Positions 1,049-31,577 of a DNA stretch of 63,116 nt are shown piece after piece. Each line of letters opens with the position of its first letter. Position 1 is the stretch's first letter. The DNA is from a virus, in the IMG/VR virus record IMGVR_UViG_3300004369_000014, positions 1 through 63,116 of that record; one strand, given 5' to 3'. The position numbers and the translations under genes were made by a program. Below the pieces are notes generated by a model. It made no database searches and was not told where the DNA came from. It was given only the letters and a program-made list of their open reading frames with translations.

Positions 1049-1091
1049 AATACGTATGTATCATTCGCAGGGACGACAGCAGGACTAAACG

Positions 1092-1745: not shown

Positions 1746-1748
1746 AAG

Positions 1749-5582: not shown

Positions 5583-5591
5583 AGGAGAGAT

Positions 5592-6785
5592 ATGAAGATA
5601 GGAATTCTTCATCCCGGAAAGATGGGCAAGTCTCTTGCTCTAGCCTGCAAAAGAAACGGCCACGAAGTCTACTACGCTTCAGAAAAAAGATCTGACGTCA
5701 CGTGCAGAAACGCAAAAGAAGCGGGCGCAATTGATCTTGTTTCTGTAAAAAGAATGTGCAGAGAAGTAGACGTCATCTTCTCAATATGTATGGGAGCCGG
5801 AGTGTTCCCAAACGCATCAGAAGCTGTCAACAATAAGTTTAGCGGTGTATTTGTAGACTTCAACCATATAGGCAACGAGGGACTTGAGAGTGATCTTAGA
5901 TCACTTCTCAGTCAAGGAAACGTTAAGTACGTTGAGGGCTCAATATACGGATGGCCGTATCCGCATGAAAATGACCCGCATGGCGAGAGAACAGTGTACT
6001 TAAACGGCGAGCACGCTAGCGACATAGGACATCTGCTGCATGGAGACGTATTTGATGTTCAAATTGGCGAAACTTCGTCAAAGAACAGAAAGCGTCAGAG
6101 AGAGGAAGAAAACAAATCTTCCAATATTCCATTAGCTAATTACGGAGTCGGTGTTGTTGAGTTTCCAAACGCTTTGGCAGACATCGATGACTCGTTTGTT
6201 GACGAGTGGATGGCAAGAAGACGAGCGTGCGAGCCCAACGATTACTACAAAGATGACGAAGGGTACTACATCAGCCGCGGCGGGTACAGGTTCACCGAGT
6301 CACAGATTCTTTCTGCGCCAGAAAGATTCATGAATCTTACTCCAGACGGCTCACCGCAAGAAGACGTCGACTTCTACAACTTACTAGAAGAAACGATGTT
6401 TAAGTGTATTCACGCGTATTCAATGGAATACCCAGAAGCTAAAGACACGCTGTGGTGGCGAGCAGACGGGCACCTGGCAGCGTACAAGCAAGGCTACTAT
6501 ATGGGATTTCATCACGACACAGCGGTGGGTGGAGCAAGCGGGAATGAGAACCCAGTGTTTCTTACCGTATCGGCGTCTTTGATCGTCTCAGACAGGTGTC
6601 AAGGCGGCGCTCTCCGCTTCAAACATCTTGATAAGGAATTCTTGCCAATAAAAGGAAGCGTGATCATGTACCCCGCCGGCTACATGGGTACGCATGCAGT
6701 CGACAGGGTAGAGTCTGGCGAGCGCATCTCGTATCTCGAGTTCTTCGGGCACGGGACTCGATCTGATCAAACAAGAAGAATATGA
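5592..6785 (+). CDS. Fusion of a Rossmann dehydrogenase-like domain with a 2OG-Fe(II) oxygenase (copy 4)
   Basis: 397 residues. Residues 1-155 look like the NAD(P)-binding domain of 6-phosphogluconate/3-hydroxyacid dehydrogenases: KIGILHPGKMGKSLA with a nucleotide loop, alternating beta-alpha units and VDVIFSICMGAG. The glycine pattern is HPGKMG rather than GxGxxG, and no C-terminal helical dehydrogenase domain follows. A basic linker (163-178) leads to an oxygenase of the WW-GH subgroup with H307, D309 (FHHDT), H368 (THAV) and R378 (GERISY). The two domains are in one uninterrupted frame. An NADPH-linked redox step paired with hydroxylation is a reasonable guess only. It overlaps the next gene by ATGA-like 4 bases (6782-6785). 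Confidence 0.75.
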   Translation: MKIGILHPGKMGKSLALACKRNGHEVYYASEKRSDVTCRNAKEAGAIDLVSVKRMCREVDVIFSICMGAGVFPNASEAVNNKFSGVFVDFNHIGNEGLESDLRSLLSQGNVKYVEGSIYGWPYPHENDPHGERTVYLNGEHASDIGHLLHGDVFDVQIGETSSKNRKRQREEENKSSNIPLANYGVGVVEFPNALADIDDSFVDEWMARRRACEPNDYYKDDEGYYISRGGYRFTESQILSAPERFMNLTPDGSPQEDVDFYNLLEETMFKCIHAYSMEYPEAKDTLWWRADGHLAAYKQGYYMGFHHDTAVGGASGNENPVFLTVSASLIVSDRCQGGALRFKHLDKEFLPIKGSVIMYPAGYMGTHAVDRVESGERISYLEFFGHGTRSDQTRRI

Positions 6786-7483
6786 TAGACCCTCTTCTTG
6801 TTGGCAATGAAGACAGAATTTTAGAATTACAAAATTTTGTAGATGAAAACGAGTGCAAAGATCTAATCAAGCTACTCGAGAAATGCTCTACGTGGACTCC
6901 AGATCAAAACCAAAGCTACTCGCATAAGAACTACGTTCTCGGGTTTTCTGACGAGACATCAAACACAGTAGCGCACAGGGTTAGACAAATATTTCTGAGT
7001 GCTAGTAGCTTGATCAATAAATTCTACGGAGATGACTTTCTCATCGGTAATCCAGGACTTAGACAGTGGCACCCTGGAGAAAGCCTTGGGACTCACGTAG
7101 ACGCGGCAAACGCAAATGGCAAGTACTTCTTTAACACAAGCGGGTTTCGCGGCTCCCAAGATTATGTCCCATGGCCTGCTGTAGATCTTTCTGTTCTACT
7201 GTACTTGAATTCAGATTTTTCAGGCGGGGACTTACATTTTCCGTATCTAAACAAAACAGTTAGACCATCAGAAGGACTTCTTGTTGCTTTTCCTTCTACA
7301 AGGTATTTTGTTCACGAGGTAACAGAGGTCGAGCACGGACTTAGGTACACGGCTTTTTCGTTTCTGTCACGCGTAAACCTTATTGCCTGTATGCTGCGCC
7401 CAGAACTGTCGCCAAATTGGCAAAGATTCTTTTTAAACTCAGAAATGCTAGACGAGTTAGTTATAGAGCTAGATAACAACTAG
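6782..7483 (+). CDS. 2OG-Fe(II) oxygenase (copy 5)
   Basis: 233 residues with H105 and D107 (THVDA), H178 (FVHEV) and R188 (GLRYTAFSF), and LNSDFSGGDLHFPY as the core strand. It lacks the WW-GH signature, so like copies 1 and 2 it represents a separate lineage. It is closest in layout to small P4H/Ofd-like proteins. It is the last rightward gene of the island: its stop TAG (7481-7483) is built from the same CTAG as the stop of the opposing oxygenase gene. No terminator fits between them. Substrate unknown. Confidence 0.85.
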   Translation: MIDPLLVGNEDRILELQNFVDENECKDLIKLLEKCSTWTPDQNQSYSHKNYVLGFSDETSNTVAHRVRQIFLSASSLINKFYGDDFLIGNPGLRQWHPGESLGTHVDAANANGKYFFNTSGFRGSQDYVPWPAVDLSVLLYLNSDFSGGDLHFPYLNKTVRPSEGLLVAFPSTRYFVHEVTEVEHGLRYTAFSFLSRVNLIACMLRPELSPNWQRFFLNSEMLDELVIELDNN

Positions 7484-8277
7484 TGGTCGTACGCTCGTTG
7501 GAAGACTCGTCTGGCTTCAAATTGTTTCTCGTCGACAAGTCTACTAAAGTCGTCGTAAACGCGGTCCATCCATATCTTGCCTTTTTGGTAGCCAAATTCG
7601 TTTACATCTCTCGGAACTATGTTTCTCTCTGGGTCTGGAGAACCATGACCATACCAAGAAACGTAAGAAAGTCTAGTCCCAGAAGTCACGGTCTTCACGC
7701 AATGAGTCCCGACGTAGTTCGATGGAAACATAAGAGTTTCACCAGCGCGCAGCTCTACCTCTAAGTCGTAGTACTCAAAGTACATATTTCCGCCGGAAAA
7801 ATCGTCGTTTATCACAGATGTAGAAGACACGACGTGCTGAACTGCCGCTTGGTCTTTTGGCGTAGTTCCTGGCCTGTAATTAACGTCGTTATCGCTGTGT
7901 GAACCTAACGAGCACCCCGCTTGATACACGGAGACGTGACCTATAGTTCTCCACCAGATTGATCTAAGAGCGTCTTGGTAGACTCCAAGGTACAAAAGCA
8001 ACGTCTGATAGTTGGCTTCTTCAAGTTTTTCTACAAAGTTCTTGTCAAGATTGTCATATATGCGCGTGGGAATAGAAAAGATGTGCTCAACTGGAACTAC
8101 ATGATGACTTTTGTTAATTCCGTGAAGTAAGTTACCTTCACTGTCGTAAACAAACTCGTAGTTGTCTTGAAATGATCTTTCAGTCTCGTCGTGAAGTTTT
8201 TGTATTTCTTCGTCTAAAACTTCAAAACAAGACGAGAACTTTACTATTCCAGGGGCTAGTACAGTAGTCTCAATCAT
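7480..8277 (-). CDS. 2OG-Fe(II) oxygenase, WW-GH subgroup (copy 6)
   Basis: 265 residues from ATG at 8277; an upstream GTG at 8304 in frame would add nine residues but lies inside the preceding gene. Ligands H127 and D129 (SHSDND), H192 (THCV), R202 (GTRLSYVSW). IWWRTIGHVSVYQAG and SNYVGTHCV put it in the same subgroup as copies 3, 4 and 7, and HSDNDVNYR closely resembles HNDNDTNYR of copy 7, so these two are probably a recent tandem duplication. The start overlaps the stop of copy 7 by eight bases. It is convergent with copy 5. Confidence 0.85.
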   Translation of the reverse strand: MIETTVLAPGIVKFSSCFEVLDEEIQKLHDETERSFQDNYEFVYDSEGNLLHGINKSHHVVPVEHIFSIPTRIYDNLDKNFVEKLEEANYQTLLLYLGVYQDALRSIWWRTIGHVSVYQAGCSLGSHSDNDVNYRPGTTPKDQAAVQHVVSSTSVINDDFSGGNMYFEYYDLEVELRAGETLMFPSNYVGTHCVKTVTSGTRLSYVSWYGHGSPDPERNIVPRDVNEFGYQKGKIWMDRVYDDFSRLVDEKQFEARRVFQRAYDH

Positions 8278-9241
8278 ACGGCATGTACGTTCCGGAGGCC
8301 TCACCTTCGAACGCTCTGTCCTGCGTCTTTATCGTACTAGCATGAAACCCAAGAAGTAGATCTCGTTGAAGATCGTAATCTGAGTGCCCAGAGTCTACAA
8401 ACTTTTCATGATCTTGATGAATGAAAGGAAAATACACTGGAGGAAGCCAGTCAACACTTTCTGTTGACTCGACGATCTCCCCGTCGTGCACCATGCCGTG
8501 GCCGTACTGCGCTAGATACGTGTACCTTTCGCCGCTTTCTACCTTTGTCACAGCGTGAGTTCCGACATAGTTTGCAGGAAAAAACACGATGTCGCCGACA
8601 TCTGGCTTTATAAGAACATTAGCGTACGGGAAGTAAAATTCTCCACCTTCGTAATTGTCGTTTAGATACACAAGGGCGTTGACTACTTGGTACATCGCGA
8701 CTTCTCGTTGAGTGAAGTATCTTTGCCCGTCTTTGGTTCTGTAGTTCGTGTCGTTGTCGTTGTGTATTCCAAGCGACGCGCCGGGCACGTACTTTAAAAC
8801 GTGTCCGCGGTTTTTCCACCAAAGAGTATTGATGATCATTGGAAAAAGATCTGTGTATCTAATTAGACAACGGTACAGAGACTTTTCTGTTTCTTCAAAG
8901 AAATTAGCGATGTCGTCAGTGGTGTAGTCTTCTACTGGACCAGGCATTCCGTAGCCGCCAAGTCTCATTGGGAGACCTAAGAGCATCTCGTATGGGAACT
9001 CTCGTCCTTCTCCGTCGAGACAGTACTTCTCTCCGCCTTCTCGTTCACGTATGTCAAAACCGCATGACGGGACATACGCATGCTCGTCGATATATGGGAG
9101 AATCTTGTCTTGCTGCACGTCTACAACGGAATGAAACTGAATAATTCCAGATCCGTGGTTCGTGTAGCGAGTAGAGGCGATCTTTTCAACGTCGCCGTCA
9201 GCAAGTTTGCTGATCTCATATCTTCTTTTCGCGCTAATCAT
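8270..9241 (-). CDS. 2OG-Fe(II) oxygenase, WW-GH subgroup (copy 7)
   Basis: 323 residues. Ligands H160 and D162 (IHNDND), H229 (THAV), R239 (GERYTYLAQYGHG). Core strand LNDNYEGGEFYFPY. LWWKNRGHVLKYVPGASLG marks the subgroup. The N-terminal 130 residues and the 60-residue C-terminal tail are longer than in its neighbour, copy 6. The ATG follows the stop of the methyltransferase-like gene by one base, so the two are likely translated from one leftward mRNA starting near 11881. Hydroxylase with unknown substrate. Confidence 0.85.
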   Translation of the reverse strand: MISAKRRYEISKLADGDVEKIASTRYTNHGSGIIQFHSVVDVQQDKILPYIDEHAYVPSCGFDIREREGGEKYCLDGEGREFPYEMLLGLPMRLGGYGMPGPVEDYTTDDIANFFEETEKSLYRCLIRYTDLFPMIINTLWWKNRGHVLKYVPGASLGIHNDNDTNYRTKDGQRYFTQREVAMYQVVNALVYLNDNYEGGEFYFPYANVLIKPDVGDIVFFPANYVGTHAVTKVESGERYTYLAQYGHGMVHDGEIVESTESVDWLPPVYFPFIHQDHEKFVDSGHSDYDLQRDLLLGFHASTIKTQDRAFEGEASGTYMPYD

Positions 9242-14927: not shown

Positions 14928-15446
14928 TCACTCAGACTTCGTCTCCGGGCTTGACTTCTTAGGCTTGACTTGCTTCTTTTTAGAAGTCTCGTTCTTTTTT
15001 CTACTAGCGTGATACGCGGTCACGGCATTCGCGCTAGTTCTGCTTCTCCACACGAAGTTGCACTCTTCACAGCGGACGAGTTTCATTGTAGTCCACCGTC
15101 CGCCCTCTGGTGACGGTGCGACGACAACGTGAAGCTTTATCGGACGAGCGCTGCAATACGGACAGTTCGGAAATCTGTTTCTTCTGATTTCTTTGCCTTC
15201 GTGCGATACAGATAGAGCTCTTCTGATTTCCGCTTCGTCCTTACCGCCCCAGACTCCCCATATTTCTTTGTTCTCCAACGCGTGTTTCAGGCACTCTTTC
15301 CTCACGGGGCAGACGAAACATAGATTCTTTGCGTCGTATCTTTCTCTCGGCACGTTAGAGAAAAAGTACTTAGACATCCACTTGTTCTTTGGCTTACTGC
15401 ATTCGGCATCATCGGTCCACTCGAAGTCGCCTATGCCTTTTGACAT
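14928..15446 (-). CDS. WhiB-family regulator with a C-terminal zinc ribbon
   Basis: 172 residues. Residues 10-75 are WhiB-like: C16, then C43-x2-C46-x5-C52 (the four Fe-S ligands), and GVWGG at 64-68. WhiB proteins carry a [4Fe-4S] cluster and bind the sigma-A subunit of RNA polymerase in actinobacteria; phage copies can repress host transcription. Unlike the usual 80-100-residue forms, a second module follows: C95-x2-C98 and C126-x2-C129, a zinc ribbon, and a Lys-rich tail. That extension could add DNA binding. WhiB is the best host marker in this window. It overlaps the upstream gene by 16 bases. Confidence 0.9.
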   Translation of the reverse strand: MSKGIGDFEWTDDAECSKPKNKWMSKYFFSNVPRERYDAKNLCFVCPVRKECLKHALENKEIWGVWGGKDEAEIRRALSVSHEGKEIRRNRFPNCPYCSARPIKLHVVVAPSPEGGRWTTMKLVRCEECNFVWRSRTSANAVTAYHASRKKNETSKKKQVKPKKSSPETKSE

Positions 15447-15878: not shown

Positions 15879-16391
15879 TCAAGAGGCTAAAACATATCCG
15901 TCGTTGTGCGGCCACAGGTACTCGTACGTTTCTGGTCTGACTCCAGAGTCTTCTTGCCAGTTGAACTGCGAGTACCACTCGTAGTTCTTGCACAGCAGGG
16001 CAGTACGATGAGTCGAGCACAGCGCAGAAAAGTATTCAGTGTCTATCATCCACGGAGGCAGAACGTACTCGCTTGAGATCCTGCCTAGCTCTACAGCTTT
16101 GTCATACGTAGCAAGAGTCTTCTCGAGCAGTGTTGATCTGTAGCCGCGCGATAGCCACTCGAAGTACGTAGAAAGAGTGTAAGAAACAAATACAGTTTCG
16201 TACCCTCTCCACATCTTGACTACAGGGTGGTTTGACCAGCCTTTAGGGTCACGGTCGTTACCGTCTGGGTCTAACCGTGTGATCGTCAAAAGACACTGCC
16301 AGGCCTCGAGTGTCTGCTTATGCAGACGCTTGTTGTCTAGAACAGCGGCCGTAGCCTCGAATGAGTCAGTTGAAATAAGAAATGATTGCAT
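15879..16391 (-). CDS. MSMEG_6728 / pyrimidine-dimer-glycosylase-like protein
   Basis: 170 residues from ATG 16391, which has GGAGAGACA before it; the open frame reaches 16517 but that would run into the methyltransferase gene. MQSFLISTDSFEATAAVLDNKRLHKQ, NHPVVKMWRGYE, FEWLSRGY and PPWM are the hallmarks of the MSMEG_6728-type family, often annotated as pyrimidine dimer DNA glycosylase/endonuclease V. In T4 the enzyme DenV repairs UV dimers; for this family that activity is by annotation rather than demonstrated, as far as I know. Trp-rich and found often in actinobacteria and their phages. Confidence 0.6.
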   Translation of the reverse strand: MQSFLISTDSFEATAAVLDNKRLHKQTLEAWQCLLTITRLDPDGNDRDPKGWSNHPVVKMWRGYETVFVSYTLSTYFEWLSRGYRSTLLEKTLATYDKAVELGRISSEYVLPPWMIDTEYFSALCSTHRTALLCKNYEWYSQFNWQEDSGVRPETYEYLWPHNDGYVLAS

Positions 16392-16415
16392 TGTCTCTCC
16401 GTCGTTTGTTTGTAC

Positions 16416-16421
16416 AATATA
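16416..16421 (-). promoter_or_regulatory. Extended -10 promoter upstream of the MSMEG_6728-like gene
   Basis: TGTTATATT on the - strand: TATATT with a TGn extension. The predicted start near 16409 leaves an 18-base leader that contains the GGAGAG ribosome site of the gene starting at 16391. It lies in the 49-base gap after the methyltransferase stop. Confidence 0.5.
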
Positions 16422-16440
16422 ACATACGGAGATTAGAGAA

Positions 16441-17682
16441 TCATTTCTGATAGAAGTTCTTCTTGACGAAGTTCCGGCTAAAGCCCTTGTCAGTGTCGAG
16501 AAGGTACTCGCGGTCACCGATCAGTTCACCGCTCGGTCCGCTTGGTTGGCCACTGAGTGCCGCTCTCGCGGACTCTCCGATCCAGTTAGCGGCTTGTACC
16601 GCCACTGCTTTGCCCCACGTCGACCCTAGGGCAGAATAGCCCTTGACACTAGCGAACTCCCAGTCGTCTGGTAGACCTTGAATTCTTGCTGCCTCACGAT
16701 GGGTAATTCGTCTTGGCTGCGTCGGATGCACAACGTGTTCGAGAGCGCTACCTGTGAGAACGTGGCAATGAGAATTTGCGTCCCAGCGGGCTGGAAGAGA
16801 AAATCCCATGTAGAAGTCGTTCTCACGGATCTTCTCTTCTTTGTTGCTCCACGACTGAGGGAACTTGTCTCCGTTTTTTTCTACGGCAAGTTTTAGTGCC
16901 TCGTTGAGAGGCATCATCTGTTCCCAGCCTTCGTTACCGATGATGTCAAAGATTTCTTTGATTCTCTGCGACTCAAGATTATCTTTGTTCACGTGGCCAT
17001 CAACCAGTCCGCTTTGATTTCTTAGATGAGAAACGAACTTCGTCCCTTCGGAGCAGTACGGCTGCTTGTCCCACGTAATCTCAAGACGCTCGAGGTCACC
17101 GATCACATCCATCATCGTAGGCAGCTCTGCTGGGGTCTCGACGTGCGCGCCGAATGGCATACCTTGCTCTACAGCTACCCAGAAGTATCTCATTCGATAT
17201 GAGAATCCACCGACCTGGAGATTGTTGTGCTTGACGTGATACAGGTCGTACTTCTTTCCAGATAGCTCTTCTACCATGTCTCGGTACTGAACCATCACGT
17301 TGCGCCCCTGCGTGTACGCCTGCTGCACGCATTCGAAGATAATCATCTTCGGTTGAATCTTAGCAGCGTACTTCATAAACGCTCGTGTGTGCTCGTGCGC
17401 CTTAGCGTCTGGCCCTCTGTTAGCAGGGCCTGACCACAGCGACCAGCCAGAACACGGCGGGCAGCCAAGAACTACGTCAGCTTCTTGAGTAGGCCAGTCT
17501 TCGGGGTCGTCGGAGAAATAAGACGCCCAGTTGTCACCGAGGTGCTTTCTGTTTGCTTGAGCCACCGGATTACCGAAGTCCAGCGTGCCTGTCCGTAGTG
17601 ACATGTCAAACCCGGAGTTTACAAATCCAAGACTCATAAATCCAGCCAAGCCGTTGCAGTCGATAAAGTTTAGATCACTCAT
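16441..17682 (-). CDS. C5-cytosine DNA methyltransferase
   Basis: 413 residues. GCPPCSGWS carries the catalytic C77 (motif IV), FECVQ (E117) is motif VI in place of the usual ENV, YRMRYFWVAV is motif VIII, RRITHREAARIQGLPDDW is motif IX, and GKAVAVQAANWIG is motif X. SAM-binding motif I is the N-terminal CNGLAGFMSLGF. About 150 residues between VIII and IX hold the target recognition domain. It methylates a specific cytosine sequence, protecting phage DNA from restriction or marking it. With an hmC pathway in the same genome its target might be remaining cytosine. The start overlaps the upstream stop (TAATG). Confidence 0.9.
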   Translation of the reverse strand: MSDLNFIDCNGLAGFMSLGFVNSGFDMSLRTGTLDFGNPVAQANRKHLGDNWASYFSDDPEDWPTQEADVVLGCPPCSGWSLWSGPANRGPDAKAHEHTRAFMKYAAKIQPKMIIFECVQQAYTQGRNVMVQYRDMVEELSGKKYDLYHVKHNNLQVGGFSYRMRYFWVAVEQGMPFGAHVETPAELPTMMDVIGDLERLEITWDKQPYCSEGTKFVSHLRNQSGLVDGHVNKDNLESQRIKEIFDIIGNEGWEQMMPLNEALKLAVEKNGDKFPQSWSNKEEKIRENDFYMGFSLPARWDANSHCHVLTGSALEHVVHPTQPRRITHREAARIQGLPDDWEFASVKGYSALGSTWGKAVAVQAANWIGESARAALSGQPSGPSGELIGDREYLLDTDKGFSRNFVKKNFYQK

Positions 17683-18412: not shown

Positions 18413-18643
18413 TTAGATTCTTTTTTCTAACTTATACGGAGGGTGACGAGCTTCGTGTATTTCTGGAGTGATTTCATCGATAGTTTTCACGTAGACATCT
18501 CCTGAAATGACGCGCAGAACTTCTACCATTCTTCCGTTATGCAGCGTCCCCGCGTCTGTTGCGTACGCGTTTCTTTTCACGCGTAGAACCTGTCCCGGCT
18601 CTATAGCAGAAGGATCAACGTCTACCCAAGTTTCACTCGCCAT
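18413..18643 (-). CDS. Hypothetical small protein, SH3-like
   Basis: 76 residues from ATG 18643; the longer frame to 18859 is out of the question since it would cover the dUTPase gene. ETWVDVDPSAIEPGQVLRVKRNAY, then HNGRMVEVLRVISGDVYVKT, suggests a small beta-barrel (SH3/KOW-like) that might bind nucleic acid. No family named. Overlaps the upstream gene by 11 bases. Confidence 0.55.
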   Translation of the reverse strand: MASETWVDVDPSAIEPGQVLRVKRNAYATDAGTLHNGRMVEVLRVISGDVYVKTIDEITPEIHEARHPPYKLEKRI

Positions 18644-19121
18644 TGGCCAATTTTTCGATTGCCGGCGGGCATGAAACTTCTGGGCAAGAAGAAACGTCGT
18701 AATCGTCAAGAGCCCTAAAACACTTCTTGCACTTGACTCCGTCGTCAAGAACCCTGTAGCCCTTGCGCTGTCTTTCTGCGTTGACCTGCATTTTCTTGAG
18801 ATATTCTTCGTCAAGCTCCGCGTCTGTTGCGCCAGCGGCGCACAGGATGTTCGCGACAAAGTGAAGAACGTCTACACACTCCTTGACGATTTCTTTTCTA
18901 TCAGCGTACGGATTGTCGTGCTGCCAAGGCTTCCACGAGATCGCCTTACGAACCTCGGCGAGTTCATCATCGATAGCAAGCATGTTCCACCGAAGGTACT
19001 CGATGAGTTGAGTAAGATCTTCGGGCGCGTCGCTATGAAACACAGAATAGTCTGCGCCGTAGACATCGCGCTGAAGTTGAGACGTTTTCTCAAGCCAAGA
19101 GTTAAACAGATACGTTGTCAT
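18633..19121 (-). CDS. All-alpha dUTPase/dCTPase (T4 gp56-like)
   Basis: 162 residues from ATG 19121 (an in-frame TTG at 19136 is the alternative). The all-alpha NTP-pyrophosphohydrolase residues are E53 and E56 (DDELAEV), WKPW (63-66), E81 and D84 and H87 (KECVDVLHF), and the end NAERQRKGY. WKPW, the ExxD-x-x-HF helix and the N--RQ-RGY ending are shared with T4 gp56, which hydrolyses dCTP and dUTP to supply dCMP and keep cytosine out of DNA. A zinc-ribbon-like tail (C131, C134 and two further Cys) is added. Specificity for dCTP versus dUTP cannot be read from sequence. It fits an hmC pathway. Confidence 0.8.
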   Translation of the reverse strand: MTTYLFNSWLEKTSQLQRDVYGADYSVFHSDAPEDLTQLIEYLRWNMLAIDDELAEVRKAISWKPWQHDNPYADRKEIVKECVDVLHFVANILCAAGATDAELDEEYLKKMQVNAERQRKGYRVLDDGVKCKKCFRALDDYDVSSCPEVSCPPAIEKLANGE

Positions 19122-20145
19122 GTGAGTCCAATCCAATCGTTTGTAGTAGATGCCATATTGCGTTTTCTGGGTCTTTTATAGAAGACAGATAAGCAGACCG
19201 TTGCGCCTCAGCGAGATCGCGTCTTTCATCAACAGACATGTGTTCGACGGTCGCCGGTATCGCTGCCCACGCGTCCCCGAGCGCTAATGAATAGCGCCAT
19301 TCAGTGCATATAGGGAGTTGATGCTGCATCGCCTGAGAGTATCTACGCGACCACCAAGGAGCTCCAGATGGTCCTGGAGAAATAATAGCGCCGATGCACG
19401 AGCGCATGACCATGTCCGCGTCTACGTCTGACGACCCTTTGTTTTGCTTCATCAAAACGTAGTCGTTCTTCATCGTGCTCGACACAGACTTGAACCACTT
19501 AGTCTTATCGTTGTCGACGCACCACGATGAGCGAGAAAGGCTACTTGACGTAGCACGAGGCTCACGTAACCTAAACGCATCAAGATTCACGCCTCTGAGA
19601 TTACCTCTTGCCATCCCGAACAGCAGATTTTCAACCTCTTGCGTTTCCACGAATGGCGTGCTTGGGTACAAGGTCACAGTGTACCACTCGTACAGAAGAA
19701 ATTCAACTGCCTTCTCTACTTTAGCAAGAGCTTTTTTGTCTTCAAAGATTCTTGAGCGCTCTTTTCTCGCCGAGTACAGGGGCTTAAACAGAGAAAGAAA
19801 AGATTTGTCTACAGCCGTTAGATTTCTTCTAACTGAGCTGGGATCTGTAGTGTCTATAGCTAGAACTAAGCGACTCGGATCCGTGTTGATCAGCGTAGAG
19901 ATCACACTTAACGCTCCGTAAGCGTAATTAGCAGTCAAACTAAGAATAGGAGAAACTCCAACAATTACCTTATCAAAGGCAGTCAGATGCTCGTACCCCA
20001 TGTCTGCACTCGGGGCGCCTATGGTGACATCAACACCAGCATCACTAAGCACTGAGTGAATTTCTCCGCTAAACGAAGCAGATCTTTGTATCAAGTTAGG
20101 CGAGCACTGCGGCGCTGTCATGCCAGTGATGAAGACTGACGCCAT
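19102..20145 (-). CDS. GT-B-like protein, paralogue 2 (candidate base glycosyltransferase)
   Basis: 347 residues. It is a paralogue of the upstream gene: VFITGMTAPQ at its start aligns with ILMTGFTALQ there, and PWWSRRYSQAM (about 258-268) followed by LGDAW aligns with GWWRSRFMYAA followed by LGDAY. Fold looks like a GT-B glycosyltransferase (two Rossmann-like halves, a late WW-x-R signature). No named family; T4 alpha- and beta-glucosyltransferases are the functional analogues I would compare. The homology sets the start at ATG 20145, a 28-base overlap with the upstream gene. Glucosylation of hmC is inference from context. Confidence 0.55.
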   Translation of the reverse strand: MASVFITGMTAPQCSPNLIQRSASFSGEIHSVLSDAGVDVTIGAPSADMGYEHLTAFDKVIVGVSPILSLTANYAYGALSVISTLINTDPSRLVLAIDTTDPSSVRRNLTAVDKSFLSLFKPLYSARKERSRIFEDKKALAKVEKAVEFLLYEWYTVTLYPSTPFVETQEVENLLFGMARGNLRGVNLDAFRLREPRATSSSLSRSSWCVDNDKTKWFKSVSSTMKNDYVLMKQNKGSSDVDADMVMRSCIGAIISPGPSGAPWWSRRYSQAMQHQLPICTEWRYSLALGDAWAAIPATVEHMSVDERRDLAEAQRSAYLSSIKDPENAIWHLLQTIGLDSHDNVSV

Positions 20146-21353
20146 TCGTGCCCCCCATTTTTTGACAGTTTGTAACCTTTGTCTTCTGCAACAGCTCGGT
20201 TGATTATTTTGTTTACGTGCGAAACAAAAGAATCGTACGATGGCATATGAGCACGAAGCGTGTCTGCCTGCGCTGTTGCTGCCTGCTCGAGCTCAGAGTC
20301 GGACATCGACTCGACCTGCTTGATTGTAAGCTTGTACGCGTCACCAAGAGGCGCGCCTTCTCCCTTATCTGTAACCAAGATCGAACGGACTCGCGCTGCG
20401 TACATGAAGCGGCTTCTCCACCAACCGCTGCCTGCGTGCGGGTACGGAGGCGAAAGAATTCCCCAGTAGTTGTTGTAAAACGCTAGAACGTCTTCTTCGC
20501 TATCAAGCCGTTGACCGCCAAATTTCTTAATTAGCTTACGACTGCCAACAATTTCTACAGGCCACTCAGGATTCTTTTTCTCAAGCCACGTGTCGTGAGG
20601 CATAAGAGCGCCAAGAACCCATGCACGACTCTTCTGTTCTGCGGGCAGCGGCTCGCATGAGTTTAGGATGTCGTAGATTGTAGCGCTTGGATCGAGTGCT
20701 TCTATTCCTGCCATTTCCTTAGGCATTCTCTTTCGAACAAGAGATCTGTCGCCGAAGCTGTACATAGGGCATACTGGCACAAGGCCTCTTTCCCATCTGT
20801 CAGCAAGAAGCGCTCTACCGGACTCGACGAGCTGTCCTTCATATTCTCTAACATTGTCGTCATTGTCGTTAAAGAAGTATCTGCCAATGCCGCACTTCTT
20901 CTCCGCCTCGGGATTTGCCTTGACTATGCGATCGAGCGCTGCCTTTGCGTCTTCGTATGAGTAGTACGTCGCGTCTTCGCTACCACGCAGGGCAGAACCA
21001 GAGAGAAGATACTTGTAGAGTATCTCTGGGTGACGAACAAGTGAACGACATGCGTTGAATACCGAGGCAAACTGCCAATCGTCAAAAAATCCAACAGCGG
21101 GAAGACCGGAGCTCAGCGTATATAGTGCGCCCATAGCACCTTGACGGCCGTTCAAGGAGTTCAACGGACCTAGATTTACCCACGCCGCGTCGTAAGACGA
21201 AAGATCTTCGCCTGGAGTAACTCGTCTCCAGTCTACAGAGTGGCCACTCTCCTCGAGAGCTTTTACGATCGAGGCAGGTACGTCTATCTTTTTGATAGTG
21301 CGATGCTCTGTATTGATCTGCAGAGCAGTAAAGCCTGTCATAAGTATTTTCAT
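20118..21353 (-). CDS. GT-B-like protein, paralogue 1 (candidate base glycosyltransferase)
   Basis: 411 residues. KILMTGFTALQINT, a helix, SYDAAWVNLGPLNSLN and LPAVGFFDDWQF form an N-terminal Rossmann half like that of T4 beta-glucosyltransferase in topology; WPVEIVGSRKLIKKFG and SGWWRSRFMYAARVRSILVTD (about 305-325) form the second half. AAGGAAG precedes the ATG. Paralogous to its downstream partner, and both lie 1.4-4.9 kb from the C5-methyltransferase. Two enzymes could attach sugars in different linkages or build a disaccharide, as in T-even phages. This role is inferred. It could instead glycosylate a protein. Confidence 0.55.
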   Translation of the reverse strand: MKILMTGFTALQINTEHRTIKKIDVPASIVKALEESGHSVDWRRVTPGEDLSSYDAAWVNLGPLNSLNGRQGAMGALYTLSSGLPAVGFFDDWQFASVFNACRSLVRHPEILYKYLLSGSALRGSEDATYYSYEDAKAALDRIVKANPEAEKKCGIGRYFFNDNDDNVREYEGQLVESGRALLADRWERGLVPVCPMYSFGDRSLVRKRMPKEMAGIEALDPSATIYDILNSCEPLPAEQKSRAWVLGALMPHDTWLEKKNPEWPVEIVGSRKLIKKFGGQRLDSEEDVLAFYNNYWGILSPPYPHAGSGWWRSRFMYAARVRSILVTDKGEGAPLGDAYKLTIKQVESMSDSELEQAATAQADTLRAHMPSYDSFVSHVNKIINRAVAEDKGYKLSKNGGHEWRQSSSLA

Positions 21354-25651: not shown

Positions 25652-26116
25652 CTATTCTACAAGTTTTCTTGGCACCCAGCCATTCTTAACGGCGTACAGA
25701 AGACCGTGTCGCATCGCGTCCAACGCGTGACCTTCTCCGCCTCTATGCCAATACCCGAGCTTCTTAAGCGCGTCGTTCGGGAACATTCTCTTTGCGTCTG
25801 ATGGAGACTGAAACACGATCTTGTCGATGTCAAGTCCTTCTGAGTTGACAAGATACTTTAGAATCCCAATTTGCTCGAGACTGTACGGCGCCTGCGAGTT
25901 CTTGACCGTCTGGGCGTTGATCGTGAATCTTTCGCACACGACGGCGATTTCTGCTTCGAATATTCTTGCGTTACGCAAGGTGTTGAGTATCGGGACGTGG
26001 TAGTCTTCAAACATATACTCGCCGGAATCGACAAGCTCAGGAGCTTCGCCCTTGTTGTATGTAAAGCTGGCTATGCCGCTTTTCTTACCAGGATCGACAG
26101 CAAGAATTATTTTCAT
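25652..26116 (-). CDS. RuvC-like Holliday junction resolvase
   Basis: 154 residues from ATG 26116, overlapping the upstream stop as ATGA. IILAVDPGKKSG (D8), AVVCERF (E62) and GEGHALDAMRHGLLY (H130, D133) give the RuvC/RNase H-fold acidic residues. The gene resolves branched DNA before packaging. Slightly shorter than bacterial RuvC. Next to the DNA polymerase and helicase as expected of a replication module. Confidence 0.85.
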   Translation of the reverse strand: MKIILAVDPGKKSGIASFTYNKGEAPELVDSGEYMFEDYHVPILNTLRNARIFEAEIAVVCERFTINAQTVKNSQAPYSLEQIGILKYLVNSEGLDIDKIVFQSPSDAKRMFPNDALKKLGYWHRGGEGHALDAMRHGLLYAVKNGWVPRKLVE

Positions 26117-26433
26117 GTCCACACCACCCTCGAGACTCCAGCTCTGCCAAGAATACTTTTGCACTTTTTGCACGGCTCAGACGGAGCTGGAGACCCGTCT
26201 GCGGACACCCTAGCGATGTAGACATTGGAGCCAGACGCTAGAGTTCCGGCGGCGGCTATTGCCGCAAACTCAGCATGAACGTGCGCAGTTCTCCACGAAA
26301 CTCTCGGGTCACCGATCTTCTTATTTGTAGTGATCGAGAGTATCTTTCCGTTGCGAACAACAACGCAGCCGTGTTTATGTCTGCACTTGCTCTTCTTTGC
26401 AGCGTCTACAGCGAGCTCGAGGTACCTGTTCAT
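26113..26433 (-). CDS. Cytidine/deoxycytidylate deaminase-family protein
   Basis: 106 residues from ATG 26433, overlapping the polymerase stop (ATGA). HVHAEFAAIA (H53, E55) and PCKKCKS (C88, C91) are the zinc-binding deaminase motifs; the CDA fold is otherwise minimal. Its substrate (a cytidine nucleoside, nucleotide or RNA base) cannot be told. It is distinct from the larger dCMP deaminase at 28243, so the phage has two. Confidence 0.8.
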   Translation of the reverse strand: MNRYLELAVDAAKKSKCRHKHGCVVVRNGKILSITTNKKIGDPRVSWRTAHVHAEFAAIAAAGTLASGSNVYIARVSADGSPAPSEPCKKCKSILGRAGVSRVVWT

Positions 26434-28256
26434 CCGTACTTGTCGCCCCACGTCTCAAGAGGCCCGTCGATGCCAGCAGTAAGCGGCACCGCCCATCCTT
26501 CAGATGTTGTCATGCACTCTTTGACTGCGTTCATTACCTCGGTGACGTCTTTCCTTGGGGCTTGTAGAACGATCTCGTCGTGCACTGGCACAATGAGAAG
26601 CTCGGTAAGATCCGCTTGATCGAGTTTGACCAAGTTAGCCTTGAACACTTCAGCAGCTCCACCCTGAATTAAGTAATTCACGAGAGTGTACACGCGGTCT
26701 TCGTCACACGGGAGCCGGCGGCCAGTCCAGGTGTAGACGTAACCTTGGCCTTCGGTCTTTAGACGACGCATCCCGATGTCTTCAATCTGTCTTTGGAAGT
26801 ACGCCATTCCCGGAAAGCGATTGTCAAACGCGTCTGAGACTGCGCGCATTTGAGGCTCAGCAACTCCGGCAGTCAGTGCTTGTTTCGCAACACCGGCTCC
26901 GTAGAGTCTGCCGTAAACTGTACCTTTGATCAATCCGCGACGTTTATCTGACTTTGTCATTGACGGGTCGTTGTAGATCTCGCGGCCAATCTCCGTGAAC
27001 GGGTCAGACCCTGTCGCGTCAGCGTGATTGAAAAGATTGATGAGGTTTGGATCGCTTGAAAGACTTGCAAACATGCGAAACTCGACCTGGTCAAGGTCTG
27101 ATGTGATGATGACATGGTCTTCATCTTTGGGGATAAACGCGCGGCGTACTACGTCGTCTCCCTTCGGCAGAGTCTGGAGCGCAGGATTAGTGATCGACAT
27201 GCGACTTGTTCGTGCGCCAAGAGTCTTAACAGATGGATGAACTATCCCGTCTATCGACTCGGTCAGAAAGTTACTGAAATACGTGTTTGCGAGCTTGTCG
27301 GCTTTTCTCTGCTTAAGTACTGTGTCGGCAAGAGCCGAAATTTCCGCGTTGTCGTTTATAGACAAAAGCTTTAGCTGATCTTTAGTGCACGACTTTTGAC
27401 CAGTCGGAGTGTATTCAGTAATTTCAGCACCAAGTGACTCAAACAGTCTGACGAGTTGAACGTTGCTGGTTATCGACACGCCGTTGTACGTGTCTTTAGC
27501 CCATTTCTTTACAGACTCGGTATACGCTGTGAGCTCGTCGTACTTCTTCTTGGAGTACTCGAGATCTACACGTGCGCCGTTGATCTCCATGCGCGTGACA
27601 ATCTTTCTTGCGGCCATCTCGAGTTCGTAGGCTTTACGGTACGGGCCTTCGGGCCCGCACTTATCCCAAAACAGCTCCCAAAGACGAGTCGTCAACACAC
27701 AGTCGAGAGCGCCGTACGACCAGTACGGTTGAAAGTTTGTAGGTACAGTTCCCCATGTCCAACCGTTCTTGACGAGCTCAACGTCAAGAGTTTCTTGTAA
27801 GGCAACAGCACGGCTATCAACGTGCAGCGCGGCAAGACGCTTTAGAGCACCAGAGCCAAGTGGATCAACAACGTGGGCCATAATCATTGTGTCGTGCGCA
27901 CGATGCCAAGGAATGTCCCAGCGTGACTGAATAGCAAACCATCTTGCCTCGAACGCAATGTTGTGACATATCAGCGGGCCGTCAAACTTGTCCATTGCCT
28001 CGTAGAATACGCCTGACCATTCTTCCCAAGGTATTGACCAGCCTTGTTCTCCGTCTCCAACCTGCACAAGACGAAGTCTTCCATGCCACGGCGACAGCGC
28101 GTGATCTCTCGGATTGCCCGGCAACTCGCCTGTTTCTGTGTCGACTGATATAGCGTTGTGAGGTCGACGTTGGCCAAGCCAGTGAATAAAATCTGCAGCT
28201 TTCTGCGAAGTATCAACAAGATGGAGTTGCACGTTTGATAGATCAGCAGTCGCCAT
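26430..28256 (-). CDS. polA: Family A DNA polymerase with 3'-5' exonuclease
   Basis: 608 residues from ATG 28256 (GGAG five bases before; GTG 28262 is possible). SVDTETGELPG (exonuclease I; D39, E41), a polymerase motif A DLDQVEFRMFASL, a motif B helix RRGLIKGTVYGRLYGAG and motif C VPVHDEIV. In the motif B helix the residue that decides dideoxy sensitivity is Tyr, as in T7 polymerase, rather than Phe as in E. coli Pol I. No 5'-nuclease domain is present. It copies the phage genome, with the helicase, SSB and resolvase around it. If hm-dCTP is made, this enzyme must accept it. Confidence 0.95.
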   Translation of the reverse strand: MATADLSNVQLHLVDTSQKAADFIHWLGQRRPHNAISVDTETGELPGNPRDHALSPWHGRLRLVQVGDGEQGWSIPWEEWSGVFYEAMDKFDGPLICHNIAFEARWFAIQSRWDIPWHRAHDTMIMAHVVDPLGSGALKRLAALHVDSRAVALQETLDVELVKNGWTWGTVPTNFQPYWSYGALDCVLTTRLWELFWDKCGPEGPYRKAYELEMAARKIVTRMEINGARVDLEYSKKKYDELTAYTESVKKWAKDTYNGVSITSNVQLVRLFESLGAEITEYTPTGQKSCTKDQLKLLSINDNAEISALADTVLKQRKADKLANTYFSNFLTESIDGIVHPSVKTLGARTSRMSITNPALQTLPKGDDVVRRAFIPKDEDHVIITSDLDQVEFRMFASLSSDPNLINLFNHADATGSDPFTEIGREIYNDPSMTKSDKRRGLIKGTVYGRLYGAGVAKQALTAGVAEPQMRAVSDAFDNRFPGMAYFQRQIEDIGMRRLKTEGQGYVYTWTGRRLPCDEDRVYTLVNYLIQGGAAEVFKANLVKLDQADLTELLIVPVHDEIVLQAPRKDVTEVMNAVKECMTTSEGWAVPLTAGIDGPLETWGDKYG

Positions 28257-28725
28257 TGTCACTCCATATTACGTCAAGTTTGATGCCGCACGCGCGCAGA
28301 TAGTCGAAAACTACTTCAGGCTCGCGATGACGGTCTTCAGGTCTGACGACGCACACAACCTTGGACACTCCAGAGTTGCTGACTAGCTTCGCACACTGCA
28401 TACACGGCGCGCTTGTTACGTACAGCGTTCCGTTTAGAACGCTAGACCTGTCGACATACATCAACGCATTTGCCTCGGCGTGTATCGCCGGACAGGCGTC
28501 GTAGAGATTATCGAGAGCCGATTCTCCACGCGCTCTCTGGCACCAGTTGATACAGTCTCCCTCATGGGGCCAACTGGCCGCTGGCCCATTGTACCCCGTT
28601 GCGCATATTCTTTGGTTTTCTGAAACTATTACTGCGCCGATCTGGGCTCTAGAGCACCTAGATCTTCTACTAACAGTTTCAGCAACGCTCAACCACGTTT
28701 CATCCCACGTTGGTCTGTTGATCAT
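28243..28725 (-). CDS. dCMP deaminase
   Basis: 160 residues from ATG 28725 (GTG 28731 is in frame). AIHAEANALMY (H82, E84) and APCMQCAKLV (C108, C111) bind zinc; RSRCSRAQIGAVIV and ICATGYNGPA are the dCMP-deaminase family motifs. It converts dCMP to dUMP. In T4 it feeds dTMP synthesis; here no classic thymidylate synthase is visible in the window, so host ThyX or ThyA would have to use the dUMP. It overlaps the polymerase start by 14 bases. Confidence 0.9.
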   Translation of the reverse strand: MINRPTWDETWLSVAETVSRRSRCSRAQIGAVIVSENQRICATGYNGPAASWPHEGDCINWCQRARGESALDNLYDACPAIHAEANALMYVDRSSVLNGTLYVTSAPCMQCAKLVSNSGVSKVVCVVRPEDRHREPEVVFDYLRACGIKLDVIWSDNGDC

Positions 28726-28727
28726 TG

Positions 28728-28925
28728 TCACTCGTCATCTTCGTCCGTTACCTCAAGCATCGAGGATATTTCTTCAGTCATTCCCATAAATAGCATTCTC
28801 GCTACTAAGTCTAGCCCATCTCGTCTGCTAAAGCCAGCCTTACGCAAAGTCGTATAGACCTCGTGCATTCCGATAGCGGCTTCTTCCATCGGTGACGCGT
28901 ACTCTTCTTCCCAGTCTTCGCTCAT
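28728..28925 (-). CDS. Hypothetical small acidic protein
   Basis: 65 residues. Acidic ends (SEDWEEEY, EVTDEDDE) around a helical GMHEVYTTLRKAGFSRRDGLDLVARML. Not recognised. It overlaps both neighbours (ATGA at its start; four bases at its end) and is therefore translated with the nucleotide-metabolism genes. Possibly a small adaptor; no evidence beyond composition. Confidence 0.6.
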   Translation of the reverse strand: MSEDWEEEYASPMEEAAIGMHEVYTTLRKAGFSRRDGLDLVARMLFMGMTEEISSMLEVTDEDDE

Positions 28926-29785
28926 TGACTTGCCTTTCGTGCGTTTTTGGCTGCTGCGTCAATCATCACGTCGGCGTACCAAGAAGCATTCTGCGACAAT
29001 CTTGGCAAGATTCTATCATCGGTGACACCGAGAAGGGCGTCAAGAGCCTGCGTCTCTACTTCGTCCCACGACGATCCTTGTATGAAAGGAATCTTCTGGC
29101 TTGAAGAAGTTTTAGTCAAGTTTTCGGCAACTTCGTAATGTTGCTCATAGATATGAAGAGAACCGACATGATGAGAGTACGTCCCAGGCTGAATTCCTAG
29201 AACACTGCACATCGCTAGTTGCACCCTAGTGAACTGAAAGAAATCGTAAGCAGCGCCAAGCCAAACGTCATTCGACCGCATGTAGACGCTCATGTTAAGC
29301 TTTCCGTTGCGAATTCTAAACTGATGAAGAATAGTGCAAGGGTAGTCGCGCTTGTTTGGCTGATTGTCGTACTCCGGGTTCCATATCGTGATGACAGCCT
29401 GACGGGTGTCAGAATCGTTCTTTAACTTGTCGACAGCTTCTTTGTACTGGCCTTTTGTTCTTAGACCGTAGGCTCCGTGAAATATACCGTTATCCTCTGC
29501 GTAGTTTATAAACTGAGGTCCAACGGCGATCACAAGCTCAGGCATAGAAACCCCAGAAAGAAGTTGACAAGCTTCAACTGCACCGATCCCTGGGACGGCT
29601 CCACGGCCAACACCGAGCGGTAACGTCGAGTAGACGTTGTCGATAAAAATTGTCGCGTCTTCAATTTCGCGAGTCTTCATACCGCGTGGAGAGACAGTTC
29701 GTCCGTTACGAAGAACATGGTGCACAAGATCTACGTAGCCGTTTACTCCGTCTTCGATGTGAATAGAGGTTACGGAAGTATCCAA
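28922..29785 (-). CDS. ThyA-family enzyme, probably dCMP hydroxymethylase (T4 gp42-like)
   Basis: 287 residues. A thymidylate-synthase fold: DSDTRQAVI, catalytic C150 in YPCTILHQF, MRSNDVWLG and VGSLHIYEQH. In thymidylate synthases a fixed Asn lies 31 residues after the Cys (C146 and N177 in E. coli) and selects dUMP. Here residue 181 is Asp. T4 dCMP hydroxymethylase has Asp there (C148, D179), and also shares Cys-Thr after the nucleophile, MRSNDV and VGSLH. So the enzyme most likely hydroxymethylates dCMP. The start is TTG at 29785 with AAAGG before it, inside the end of the kinase gene. Alternative: a thymidylate synthase with altered specificity. Confidence 0.8.
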   Translation of the reverse strand: MDTSVTSIHIEDGVNGYVDLVHHVLRNGRTVSPRGMKTREIEDATIFIDNVYSTLPLGVGRGAVPGIGAVEACQLLSGVSMPELVIAVGPQFINYAEDNGIFHGAYGLRTKGQYKEAVDKLKNDSDTRQAVITIWNPEYDNQPNKRDYPCTILHQFRIRNGKLNMSVYMRSNDVWLGAAYDFFQFTRVQLAMCSVLGIQPGTYSHHVGSLHIYEQHYEVAENLTKTSSSQKIPFIQGSSWDEVETQALDALLGVTDDRILPRLSQNASWYADVMIDAAAKNARKASQ

Positions 29786-30771
29786 TTTACGTACCTTTCG
29801 TCGATGCCGTACGCGTAGCTTTGCATCGCTTCTCCGTACAGCTTTTTGTCAGCATGATGAAATCTTCTTACGTATTGCGGATGCGGAAAAACAATGTACT
29901 CCTGTGCGCACAGAGCTTTAGTCTTGACGTGCCGATCAGCAAGTCTACCAAGAACGATAATCTTTGGCCAATGCAGCACTTCAAGAAGAATGTCTAGTCT
30001 TTCGCCGGAAAAATCTTCAGAGTTGATAATTCCTACGTCTCGCCAGAGAGGCTCTGGAAGAGCGTTTAACAGATAGTCCCCAGAGTTACCGCCGACTGGC
30101 ATGAACGGAAGTATCGTCTCGGTCGGGTCTTTTCTCTTATCGCCAATAAGAAGAACTCTAGGGCGCGCTGGGCCGATGTACTCTGGAAACGCGGCGATAC
30201 CTGCCGCGTCATCGGCCCGCTCTGCCGCGGCAGTAATGATCGCAGACGCAACACTTTTAACGTACTTCTCTCCGTCAGGCACCTCTATCTTTGCCTGAAT
30301 AGAGTGAGTTTTTGCCTGTGTAGACTCGTAAAGAGACAGAATTTCTTCCATTTCTTCGACGTCTACAAAATCATCACCACGAGAAAGAATTCTCTTCTTG
30401 ATTACGTCAAGTGGCTGATAGACCCAGAACTGGGCCATACCGCGAGACGCCATAAACAGCTCAACCCAGCGCCAGCCGGCGATGCCCAGAAGGCCATAAC
30501 CGTCTGTGTTTGTCTGCGGGCGCTTGAGCTTGGCGTAGGTGCACTCGCCCCAGTGCCATCGATCCGCTACGGCAAGTTCCTTAGTCCAGTCGATGCTTTC
30601 AATATCAACCGCGTACTCGTGCAGCACCCAGCGACGAGTTAGCTCCTCGGGTCTACCCTTGTGAAACTCGTGAATACGAGAAGCAGGTGACTCAGAGCGT
30701 AGTTGCTCTTTTATCGCCGCGGCTATTGAACTTTTGCCAGAAGCGTCGGTGCCTTCAAGAACAATGAACAT
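29770..30771 (-). CDS. Deoxynucleoside monophosphate kinase fused to a UDG-like domain
   Basis: 333 residues. Residues 1-185 are a thymidylate-kinase-type dNMP kinase: FIVLEGTDASGKSS (P-loop 7-15), ADRWHWGE (the DR motif) and a lid SRGDDF. Residues about 198-310 resemble the uracil-DNA-glycosylase superfamily: VLLIGDKRKDP, PFMPVGGNSGDYLLNAL, a mid strand IIVLGRLADRHV and FPHPQYVRRF (the HP-containing end motif). No catalytic Asp/His pair is certain, so the domain may bind rather than cut. A kinase able to phosphorylate hm-dCMP (T4 gp1) would be the next step after the enzyme encoded downstream. Confidence 0.75.
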   Translation of the reverse strand: MFIVLEGTDASGKSSIAAAIKEQLRSESPASRIHEFHKGRPEELTRRWVLHEYAVDIESIDWTKELAVADRWHWGECTYAKLKRPQTNTDGYGLLGIAGWRWVELFMASRGMAQFWVYQPLDVIKKRILSRGDDFVDVEEMEEILSLYESTQAKTHSIQAKIEVPDGEKYVKSVASAIITAAAERADDAAGIAAFPEYIGPARPRVLLIGDKRKDPTETILPFMPVGGNSGDYLLNALPEPLWRDVGIINSEDFSGERLDILLEVLHWPKIIVLGRLADRHVKTKALCAQEYIVFPHPQYVRRFHHADKKLYGEAMQSYAYGIDERYVNWILP

Positions 30772-30829: not shown

Positions 30830-31306
30830 CTACGGAATGACCTCGATGCGATACACTTTTTCAATTGCCTTGTCGGTCTTTGACGCCTCCTCGAGAAGAC
30901 GCTGCGCGACGTTAGTCAGGTATCTTGCCCCGCTTTCGTCGTATTTGTACAACGCCTCGAGAACCGCGGAAGGGTCATCACTTACCTGCGCCCAGTGACG
31001 ATTCTTTTCTGGAAATACGACTCCCGCAGCCAAAGAAGGGCTGCACGAGTCACACGAGACCAGATCTCTCGGATTGTCTATTGATTTAGTTGCTACTTCG
31101 TTGAGTCCGTATCTCTTCACAAGATGACAGGTCGCGGAGTGGTAAACAACAGAAACACCTACGCGCGAAAGCACGTACGAACCACTTTCTGTCTTGTACA
31201 GCTCAAACTCAATCCATCTCAGCGAGTCCCGTCTGTAAGACGAAGATTTTCCAAGTAGAGCGCCATTGAACTGTAGTGTTCTGTCGCCGTCTTTTACATG
31301 AATCAT
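30830..31306 (-). CDS. Hypothetical protein (158 aa)
   Basis: ATG at 31306 is chosen because the longer frame up to 31447 would cover the coiled-coil gene. Visible residues: a beta-rich half (LQFNGALLGKSSSYR, LRWIEFELYKTESGSYVLSRVGVSVVYH) with a CDSC pair near the middle and a helical end (ARYLTNVAQRLLEEASK). Not recognised; the YHSATCHLVKRYG motif is unusual. Lies between tail and nucleotide-metabolism genes. Confidence 0.6.
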   Translation of the reverse strand: MIHVKDGDRTLQFNGALLGKSSSYRRDSLRWIEFELYKTESGSYVLSRVGVSVVYHSATCHLVKRYGLNEVATKSIDNPRDLVSCDSCSPSLAAGVVFPEKNRHWAQVSDDPSAVLEALYKYDESGARYLTNVAQRLLEEASKTDKAIEKVYRIEVIP

Positions 31307-31385
31307 AATGTGTTCGCCTGGCCCTCGGTCTTTTCCGTTTGGTGAAATTTTATCCTGTGCGTGGGAGACGAATGGTACGTGACTA

Positions 31386-31577
31386 TCAAGATTGACTTGC
31401 CTGCTTAGAAGGCGACTTTTTCTCCTTCTCTTGCCCCGCTGGCACAAGCGACTCTTTTAGCGCCTCTATCTGCGCTGACATCTGCTTTATTTTGGTGTCT
31501 TTAACTACAATCTCGGTCATTAGCTGTCCGATCTTTTCGTTGTACACCTGGATTAAGACGTTTACGTCTATGTCCAC
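31386..31577 (-). CDS. Small coiled-coil protein
   Basis: 63 residues, GTG start with GGAGATTCT. A heptad-like helix (IGQLMTEIVVKDTKIKQMSAQIEALKESL) followed by a Lys/Ser/Gln tail. Not recognised. Dimeric coiled coil is likely; role unknown. First gene after the tail fibre group on the - strand. Confidence 0.6.
   Translation of the reverse strand: MDIDVNVLIQVYNEKIGQLMTEIVVKDTKIKQMSAQIEALKESLVPAGQEKEKKSPSKQASQS

Follow-up and report, generated by a model that had tools for sequence, protein, structure and literature searches.

The virus DNA analysed here, which takes up a complete IMG/VR virus record (63,116 bases, hereafter the window), encodes a protein in which a YorR/thymidylate-kinase-like P-loop kinase (residues 1 to about 190) and a domain of the uracil-DNA glycosylase (UDG) superfamily (residues about 196-321) are joined in one chain. 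The gene lies next to a putative dCMP hydroxymethylase gene, and we consider it reasonably probable that its product is a two-domain enzyme of the phage cytosine-hydroxymethylation pathway, i.e. a kinase of hydroxymethyl-dCMP (hm-dCMP) that carries a pyrimidine-base-binding UDG module for uracil-type bases. UDG folds on phage polymerases are already known, as is the action of Brig1 against hydroxymethylcytosine (hmC) phages. Of the kinase-UDG fusion no description was found in the papers searched, a set that leaves out most subscription journals.

Architecture of the fusion protein

The reading frame lies exactly where the original prediction had placed it, on the minus strand, and a good Shine-Dalgarno sequence (GGAGAG) is found 5 nt upstream of its start codon.

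29770..30771, minus strand: kinase-UDG fusion ORF, 333 aa, ATG start
30202..30771, minus strand: P-loop mononucleotide-kinase domain, residues 1-190, YorR/TMPK-like (PHROG 761 and YorR structures)
29773..30198, minus strand: UDG-superfamily domain, residues 192-333 (model, UDG structural matches, hhalign 90.7%)

The AlphaFold2 model of the full-length fusion has a pLDDT of 93 and a pTM of 0.93. The best named relative is a protein of the Actinomycetia phage DSL-LC01 (WJZ48531.1), which is 51% identical over the full length and has the surrounding operon in common with the window. This protein and gp315 of Bacillus phage G (YP_009015618.1) are, like the window protein, full-length kinase-UDG chains, and genes for a thymidylate synthase of the hydroxymethylase type and for a dCMP deaminase lie in their vicinity; both records are named thymidylate kinase only.

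The kinase domain

30730..30753, minus strand: Walker A, GTDASGKS, residues 7-14 (G7, G12 and K13 invariant in 35 diverse relatives)
30544..30564, minus strand: DRWHWGE, residues 70-76, TMPK-type DR motif (D70, R71 and Y79 invariant in 35 diverse relatives)

The P-loop thymidylate-kinase fold that had been proposed for the N-terminal half is borne out by both sequence and structure comparisons. Residues 1-184 match PHROG 761 (thymidylate kinase) with E=1.9e-11, and YorR of SPbeta (3kb2, 2axp) is matched by phmmer (5.9e-5), by Foldseek (8e-8) and in structural comparison with a Z score of 18, the values for dTMP kinases being 14-15.5. The P-loop, the DR motif and the TMPK-type fold are thus all present within residues 1 to about 190. 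The score against the dTMP-kinase equivalog TIGR00041 is 22.4 bits, far below the cut-off of 83.25, so we regard this half as a TMPK/YorR-like mononucleotide kinase and not as a dTMP kinase. YorR and the dTMP kinases have the same kinase fold but carry no UDG domain. Most likely the kinase half phosphorylates hm-dCMP, the presumed product of the neighbouring putative dCMP hydroxymethylase. Kinship with the 5hmdU DNA kinase is not claimed, the match (phage M6, E 0.02) being marginal and at the level of the P-loop only.

Assignment of the C-terminal domain to the UDG superfamily

In sequence searches of Pfam, PHROGs and NCBIfam, the window protein gave no match above threshold for its UDG half; the Pfam UDG family (PF03167) was reached with 14 bits and E 0.056 against a cut-off of 24.3, and a profile of the domain found no match in the PDB. 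The assignment therefore rests on bridging homologs, on structure and on the placement of the motifs. Two full-length relatives, gp315 of phage G (48.2 bits) and the protein of locus L102 (51 bits), exceed the Pfam cut-off, and gp315 also matches family-4 UDG chains by sequence. An HMM built from the UDG half of the window family alone detects both of them (3e-8 for L102, 5e-4 for gp315), and a tblastn search with the alignment led by L102 matched window-type members near full length with E values of about 1e-7 to 1e-12. When the domain was compared by hhalign with a small profile of family-4 UDGs, UdgX, gp315 and the SPO1 sequence, the probability was 90.7%, and it was 37% when the phage bridges were removed.

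When the complete protein was compared with the folds in the PDB, kinases took up the list of matches, and the comparison was therefore made with the C-terminal domain alone. The isolated domain (model pLDDT 88) is predicted to have the four-stranded alpha/beta UDG fold; its leading Foldseek matches are UDGs, and UDG chains reach Z scores of 10-11. The best structural match is the family-4 UDG of S. tokodaii (Z 11.0, rmsd 3.0 over 127 residues), and the polymerase of Thermus phage phiLo (9qhs) is matched with Z 10.6. A predicted structure without a UDG fold, the result that was to count against the original prediction, did not arise, and the domain is a member of the UDG superfamily.

The pocket residues and their conservation

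30130..30144, minus strand: motif 1, G210-D211-x-R-N/K, at the position of GE[AG]PG in family 4 (D 23, E 8, Q 3, S 1 in 35 relatives)
30097..30111, minus strand: LPFMP, residues 221-225, with F223 at the base-stacking Phe position (F 33, W 2 in 35 relatives)
30022..30024, minus strand: N250, base-reading Asn at the end of strand 2 (invariant, 35/35)
29947..29952, minus strand: L274-G275, end of strand 3 (invariant, 35/35)
29860..29883, minus strand: motif 2, HPQYVRRF, residues 297-304 (H297 and P298 invariant, 35/35)

The usual catalytic residues had at first been described as not clear. Contrary to that description, four residues align with the pocket of family-4 UDGs and are invariant or nearly so: D211 corresponds to the motif-1 Glu, F223 and N250 to F55 and N82 of the S. 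tokodaii UDG, and H297 to the motif-2 His. In the S. tokodaii enzyme F55 stacks on the base and N82 reads it (PMC11078745). All four are invariant in 50 closer homologs. Scans with wider alignments supplied intermediates of about 20-27% identity. In 35 diverse relatives the pocket residues rank with the best conserved positions of the domain; gp315 differs in having Q at the D211 position and W at the F223 position. Moreover, the residues sit where the UDG fold requires them: strands 1 and 2 each end in one, a further one lies in the loop that follows strand 1, and another comes after strand 4. As far as the alignments indicate, the domain has the motif-1 polar residue, the stacking aromatic, the base-reading residue and the motif-2 HP of a UDG-superfamily pocket, and we hold it to be very likely that it forms a functional base-binding pocket.

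The family-4 UDGs (S. tokodaii 4zbx/4zby, T. thermophilus 1ui0, T. maritima 1vk2) share the fold and the pocket positions with the window domain, which in contrast to them is fused to a kinase and is about 50 residues shorter. The four cysteines of the family-4 4Fe-4S cluster are absent in the window protein, in gp315 and in the other aligned relatives. Motif 1 reads GDxRN/K and lacks the PG of the family-4 GE[AG]PG, and a stretch of about 18 residues that carries RG, the DNA-contact loop of family 4, is missing in the window family. An alignment with annotated UdgX revealed no insertion with the covalent His (H109), the region being shortened. Membership in family 4 or UdgX was rejected on these grounds. 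Since the Fe-S cysteines, the motif-1 PG and the RG stretch are lost and motif 2 has the distinctive subfamily signature HP[QA]xV[RK]RF, we regard the domain as a separate branch of the UDG superfamily.

The same losses are compatible with a catalytically dead UDG fold that serves as a structural or DNA-tethering appendage only, the protein being simply a nucleotide kinase. The phage family-A polymerases (SPO1 gp31 and the phiLo enzyme) likewise carry a UDG-fold domain on a replication enzyme, in their case a polymerase, and the N-terminal UDG domain of the SPO1-type polymerase, in which the base-reading Asn is replaced by Ser, may be such a case; among phage proteins it is also the one most closely related to the gp315 domain. 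In addition, a jumbo-phage contig (described below) is without most of the domain. However, it is the pocket residues and not the scaffold that are among the most conserved across very diverged fusions, unlike in the SPO1 polymerase, and we consider a dead fold rather unlikely.

With regard to the base, the original prediction had named uracil and unmodified bases as well as modified bases or nucleotides. The Asn at the base-reading position is of the uracil type and points to uracil (U) or hydroxymethyluracil (hmU) rather than to C or hmC. Because the Asn is invariant, we infer a base of the uracil type. The same residue bears on the idea that unmodified cytosine (or uracil) in host DNA is the target of excision by the domain, which would aid the breakdown of that DNA while the hmC DNA of the phage is spared. 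This would fit the logic of hmC phages, and enzymes of the UDG superfamily can be retargeted to modified cytosines, as in Brig1 (PMC11078745). An invariant Asn is, however, typical of uracil readers, Brig1 having Glu at this position for its cytosine derivative, and the constant fusion to a nucleotide kinase would be left unexplained, which makes such a role very improbable. Brig1 is an alpha-glucosyl-hmC DNA glycosylase from an actinobacterial defence island (PMC11078745). It resembles the window domain in its superfamily, in having the same S. tokodaii UDG as best structural match and in its link to hmC, but it is a standalone host defence enzyme and has Tyr and Glu in the pocket instead of Phe and Asn.

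Gene neighbourhood

28922..29785, minus strand: thymidylate-synthase homolog with dCMP-hydroxymethylase signature (D147, C150, D181; Pfam Thymidylat_synt 1.3e-24)
28243..28731, minus strand: dCMP deaminase (PHROG 174, 6e-44)
26430..28262, minus strand: family A DNA polymerase, same operon (PHROG 17, 2e-109)
26113..26451, minus strand: second, short dCMP-deaminase-like protein (Pfam 3.1e-12)
30830..31447, minus strand: hypothetical gene next to the fusion on its upstream side, conserved (homolog in 80/80 loci; no family match)
18633..19136, minus strand: all-alpha dUTPase/MazG-like NTP pyrophosphohydrolase, a candidate for dCTP/dUTP removal (dUTPase_2 2.1e-11, PHROG 18650 1e-18)

The thymidylate-synthase homolog lies downstream of the fusion gene, with an overlap of 16 nt in the window. 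It follows the fusion directly in all 78 loci that have enough downstream sequence, where the overlap is often about 9-12 nt; at locus L102 no such homolog was found within the retrieved flank. The window homolog has Asp at the position of N177 in E. coli ThyA and D179 in T4, and a second Asp that precedes the catalytic Cys by three residues; PMC6400193 identifies the two as determinants of dCMP preference and hydroxymethylation. Both aspartates are present in 81/81 homologs of the first set of fusion loci and in 21/21 from further or divergent loci (a few of these contigs may recur in the first set), i.e. in all 102 homologs recovered beside a fusion gene, and alignment shows them in gp319 of phage G as well. 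The signature is incomplete in the window homolog, as Ser94 of the T4 dCMP hydroxymethylase is replaced by Gly, Tyr96 being kept (Y106). Judging from these residues the neighbour probably encodes a dCMP hydroxymethylase, and the tie to base modification that had been suggested on account of this gene is upheld.

The dCMP deaminase genes belong to the operon of the fusion in the window and in most loci; the short deaminase-like gene was seen in 18 of 80 loci, the flanks not always extending that far. The presence of deaminases would suit a nucleotide-editing role, in which the kinase separates hm-dCMP poorly from its deaminated forms and the UDG pocket binds or hydrolyses dUMP or hm-dUMP, thereby blocking phosphorylation and incorporation. 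UdgX, one of the structural matches, has been crystallised with dUMP (6ajp), and the domain is always found on a kinase, no standalone form having been found. On the other hand, classical UDGs act on DNA rather than on free nucleotides, and the conserved Arg/Lys of HPQYV[RK]RF would also fit a contact with the DNA backbone. We therefore think that editing of this kind is quite unlikely.

Unfused kinases of the same class adjoin hydroxymethylase-type genes in Gordonia phages, which argues that an hmC module already in existence acquired the UDG half, and that the pathway can do without it. In the T4-like Pectobacterium phage PM2 (locus L106, 19700-23218) a YorR-like kinase is encoded near gp42, so the kinase class occurs near dCMP hydroxymethylase beyond the actinophages too.

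Several other genes of the window are of interest. A C5-cytosine DNA methyltransferase gene (16441-17682, minus strand) lies beside a pyrimidine-dimer DNA glycosylase gene (15879-16517), both being conserved in DSL-LC01. As such a methyltransferase would be odd in a genome with fully replaced cytosine, the replacement of C by hmC may be partial. Next to the NTP pyrophosphohydrolase are two genes on the minus strand whose products match an annotated glycosyltransferase of DSL-LC01 without Pfam support (20118-21353, 30%, E 8e-45; 19102-20145, 22%, E 7e-8). The pair also matches a neighbour of that glycosyltransferase (33%, E 5e-53), and in DSL-LC01 a UDP-galactopyranose mutase is encoded between the two. 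We regard the pair as candidate glycosyltransferases of hmC DNA. A WhiB-like regulator (14928-15446, minus strand) fits an actinobacterial host. Several consecutive proteins encoded at 182-9241 all have their matches in one C-terminal part of PHROG 61 (2OG-Fe(II) oxygenase), and likewise of families that go by the names DNA endonuclease and ferrochelatase; this probably reflects a common unrelated domain under misleading names.

Distribution and origin of the fusion

Relatives of the fusion are encoded in at least 120 viral stretches. The first alignment-based scan of viral sequences returned 141 stretches with relatives, and the 80 loci kept all encode full-length fusions of 331-340 aa, 55 of them distinct. 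An unbiased search for the DNA pattern that encodes HPQYVRRF found 81 viral stretches. They comprise 66 clear fusions, 13 pieces of the family cut by the locus end, one that looks fused and fails the P-loop test (L226) and a match due to chance (L215); the C-terminal domain did not occur on its own in any of them. Conserved-peptide patterns detected no fusion in 84,980 bacterial and archaeal genomes. A tblastn search of phages with the C-terminal domain alone found only DSL-LC01 with confidence, and matches in Faecalibacterium and Mycobacterium were dismissed as chance.

The pairwise identity is alike in the two halves (56% and 55%). Rough NG86 estimates of dN/dS were 0.116 for the kinase half and 0.086 for the UDG half, values that are indications only since synonymous sites are partly saturated. 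Both halves appear to be under purifying selection. This, together with the 55 distinct full-length fusions of similar length in 80 viral contigs, rules out that the two domains were joined by chance.

On the 504-kb jumbo-phage contig (L103) a kinase with an eroded, truncated UDG remnant is encoded at 4989-5696. Downstream of it are a hydroxymethylase-type thymidylate synthase gene and then a dCMP-deaminase-like ORF with a long insertion, perhaps an intein. The kinase tree places the unfused kinases of the Gordonia phages together with the window family, so that two changes are needed, while the UDG halves have common deletions and the motif HPxYV[RK]RF. Two fusions, or a single one with loss of the UDG half in the Gordonia phages, are therefore both possible.

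Proposed function

In T4 the step from hm-dCMP to hm-dCDP is performed by gp1. In the reading that we favour, the N-terminal domain would carry out this conversion on the product supplied by the neighbouring dCMP hydroxymethylase. The C-terminal domain would be a compact UDG-superfamily domain in which the pyrimidine pocket is kept but the Fe-S cluster and one DNA-contact loop are gone. Most likely it captures, in nascent DNA, the bases that arise from C and hmC by deamination, uracil or hydroxymethyluracil, and the captured base might then be excised, or the kinase might be held near such sites. The supply of the modified nucleotide and the policing of its deaminated form would thus be united in one protein.

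A real glycosylase activity of the domain has close to but somewhat short of an even chance. That it is a non-catalytic reader of DNA or bases, or a tether, seems doubtful to us, and binding or editing of free dUMP or hm-dUMP is unlikely. Motif 1 without the PG of active family-4 UDGs, an acid that varies between D, E, Q and S, and the eroded domain of the jumbo phage are points against our favoured reading as a whole, as are the unfused kinases of the Gordonia phages and the C5-cytosine methyltransferase gene of the window.

Another arrangement would operate at the level of DNA: the UDG fold flips a hydroxymethylated pyrimidine and the kinase phosphorylates its hydroxymethyl group or acts on it otherwise; or else the UDG fold is a nucleotide-level editing domain of the kinase. 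No description of a flip-and-phosphorylate or kinase-editing role for UDG folds was found in the literature searched, and we rate these options together as improbable. If true, the DNA-level version would do in one chain, and for cytosine, what T-hypermodifying phages do with a separate 5hmdU DNA kinase.

Significance

The fusion proteins make up a branch of the UDG superfamily that is sizeable, is specific to phages and has so far been hidden under the name thymidylate kinase; its base pocket is intact and it is strictly linked to cytosine hydroxymethylation. Phage G and these largely uncultured carriers, one relative of which is a predicted actinophage, are probable hmC phages. This status is important in view of defences like Brig1, glycosylases directed at hmC that actinobacterial hosts possess. 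That the base-binding pocket is intact in a UDG-like domain joined to a kinase suggests that the carriers couple the supply of a modified nucleotide to base recognition, a coupling absent from the papers searched. The family thus offers a handle on how hmC phages cope with the deamination of hmC to hmU, and on why UDG folds are repeatedly incorporated into phage replication enzymes, i.e. the SPO1 and phiLo polymerases and now kinases.
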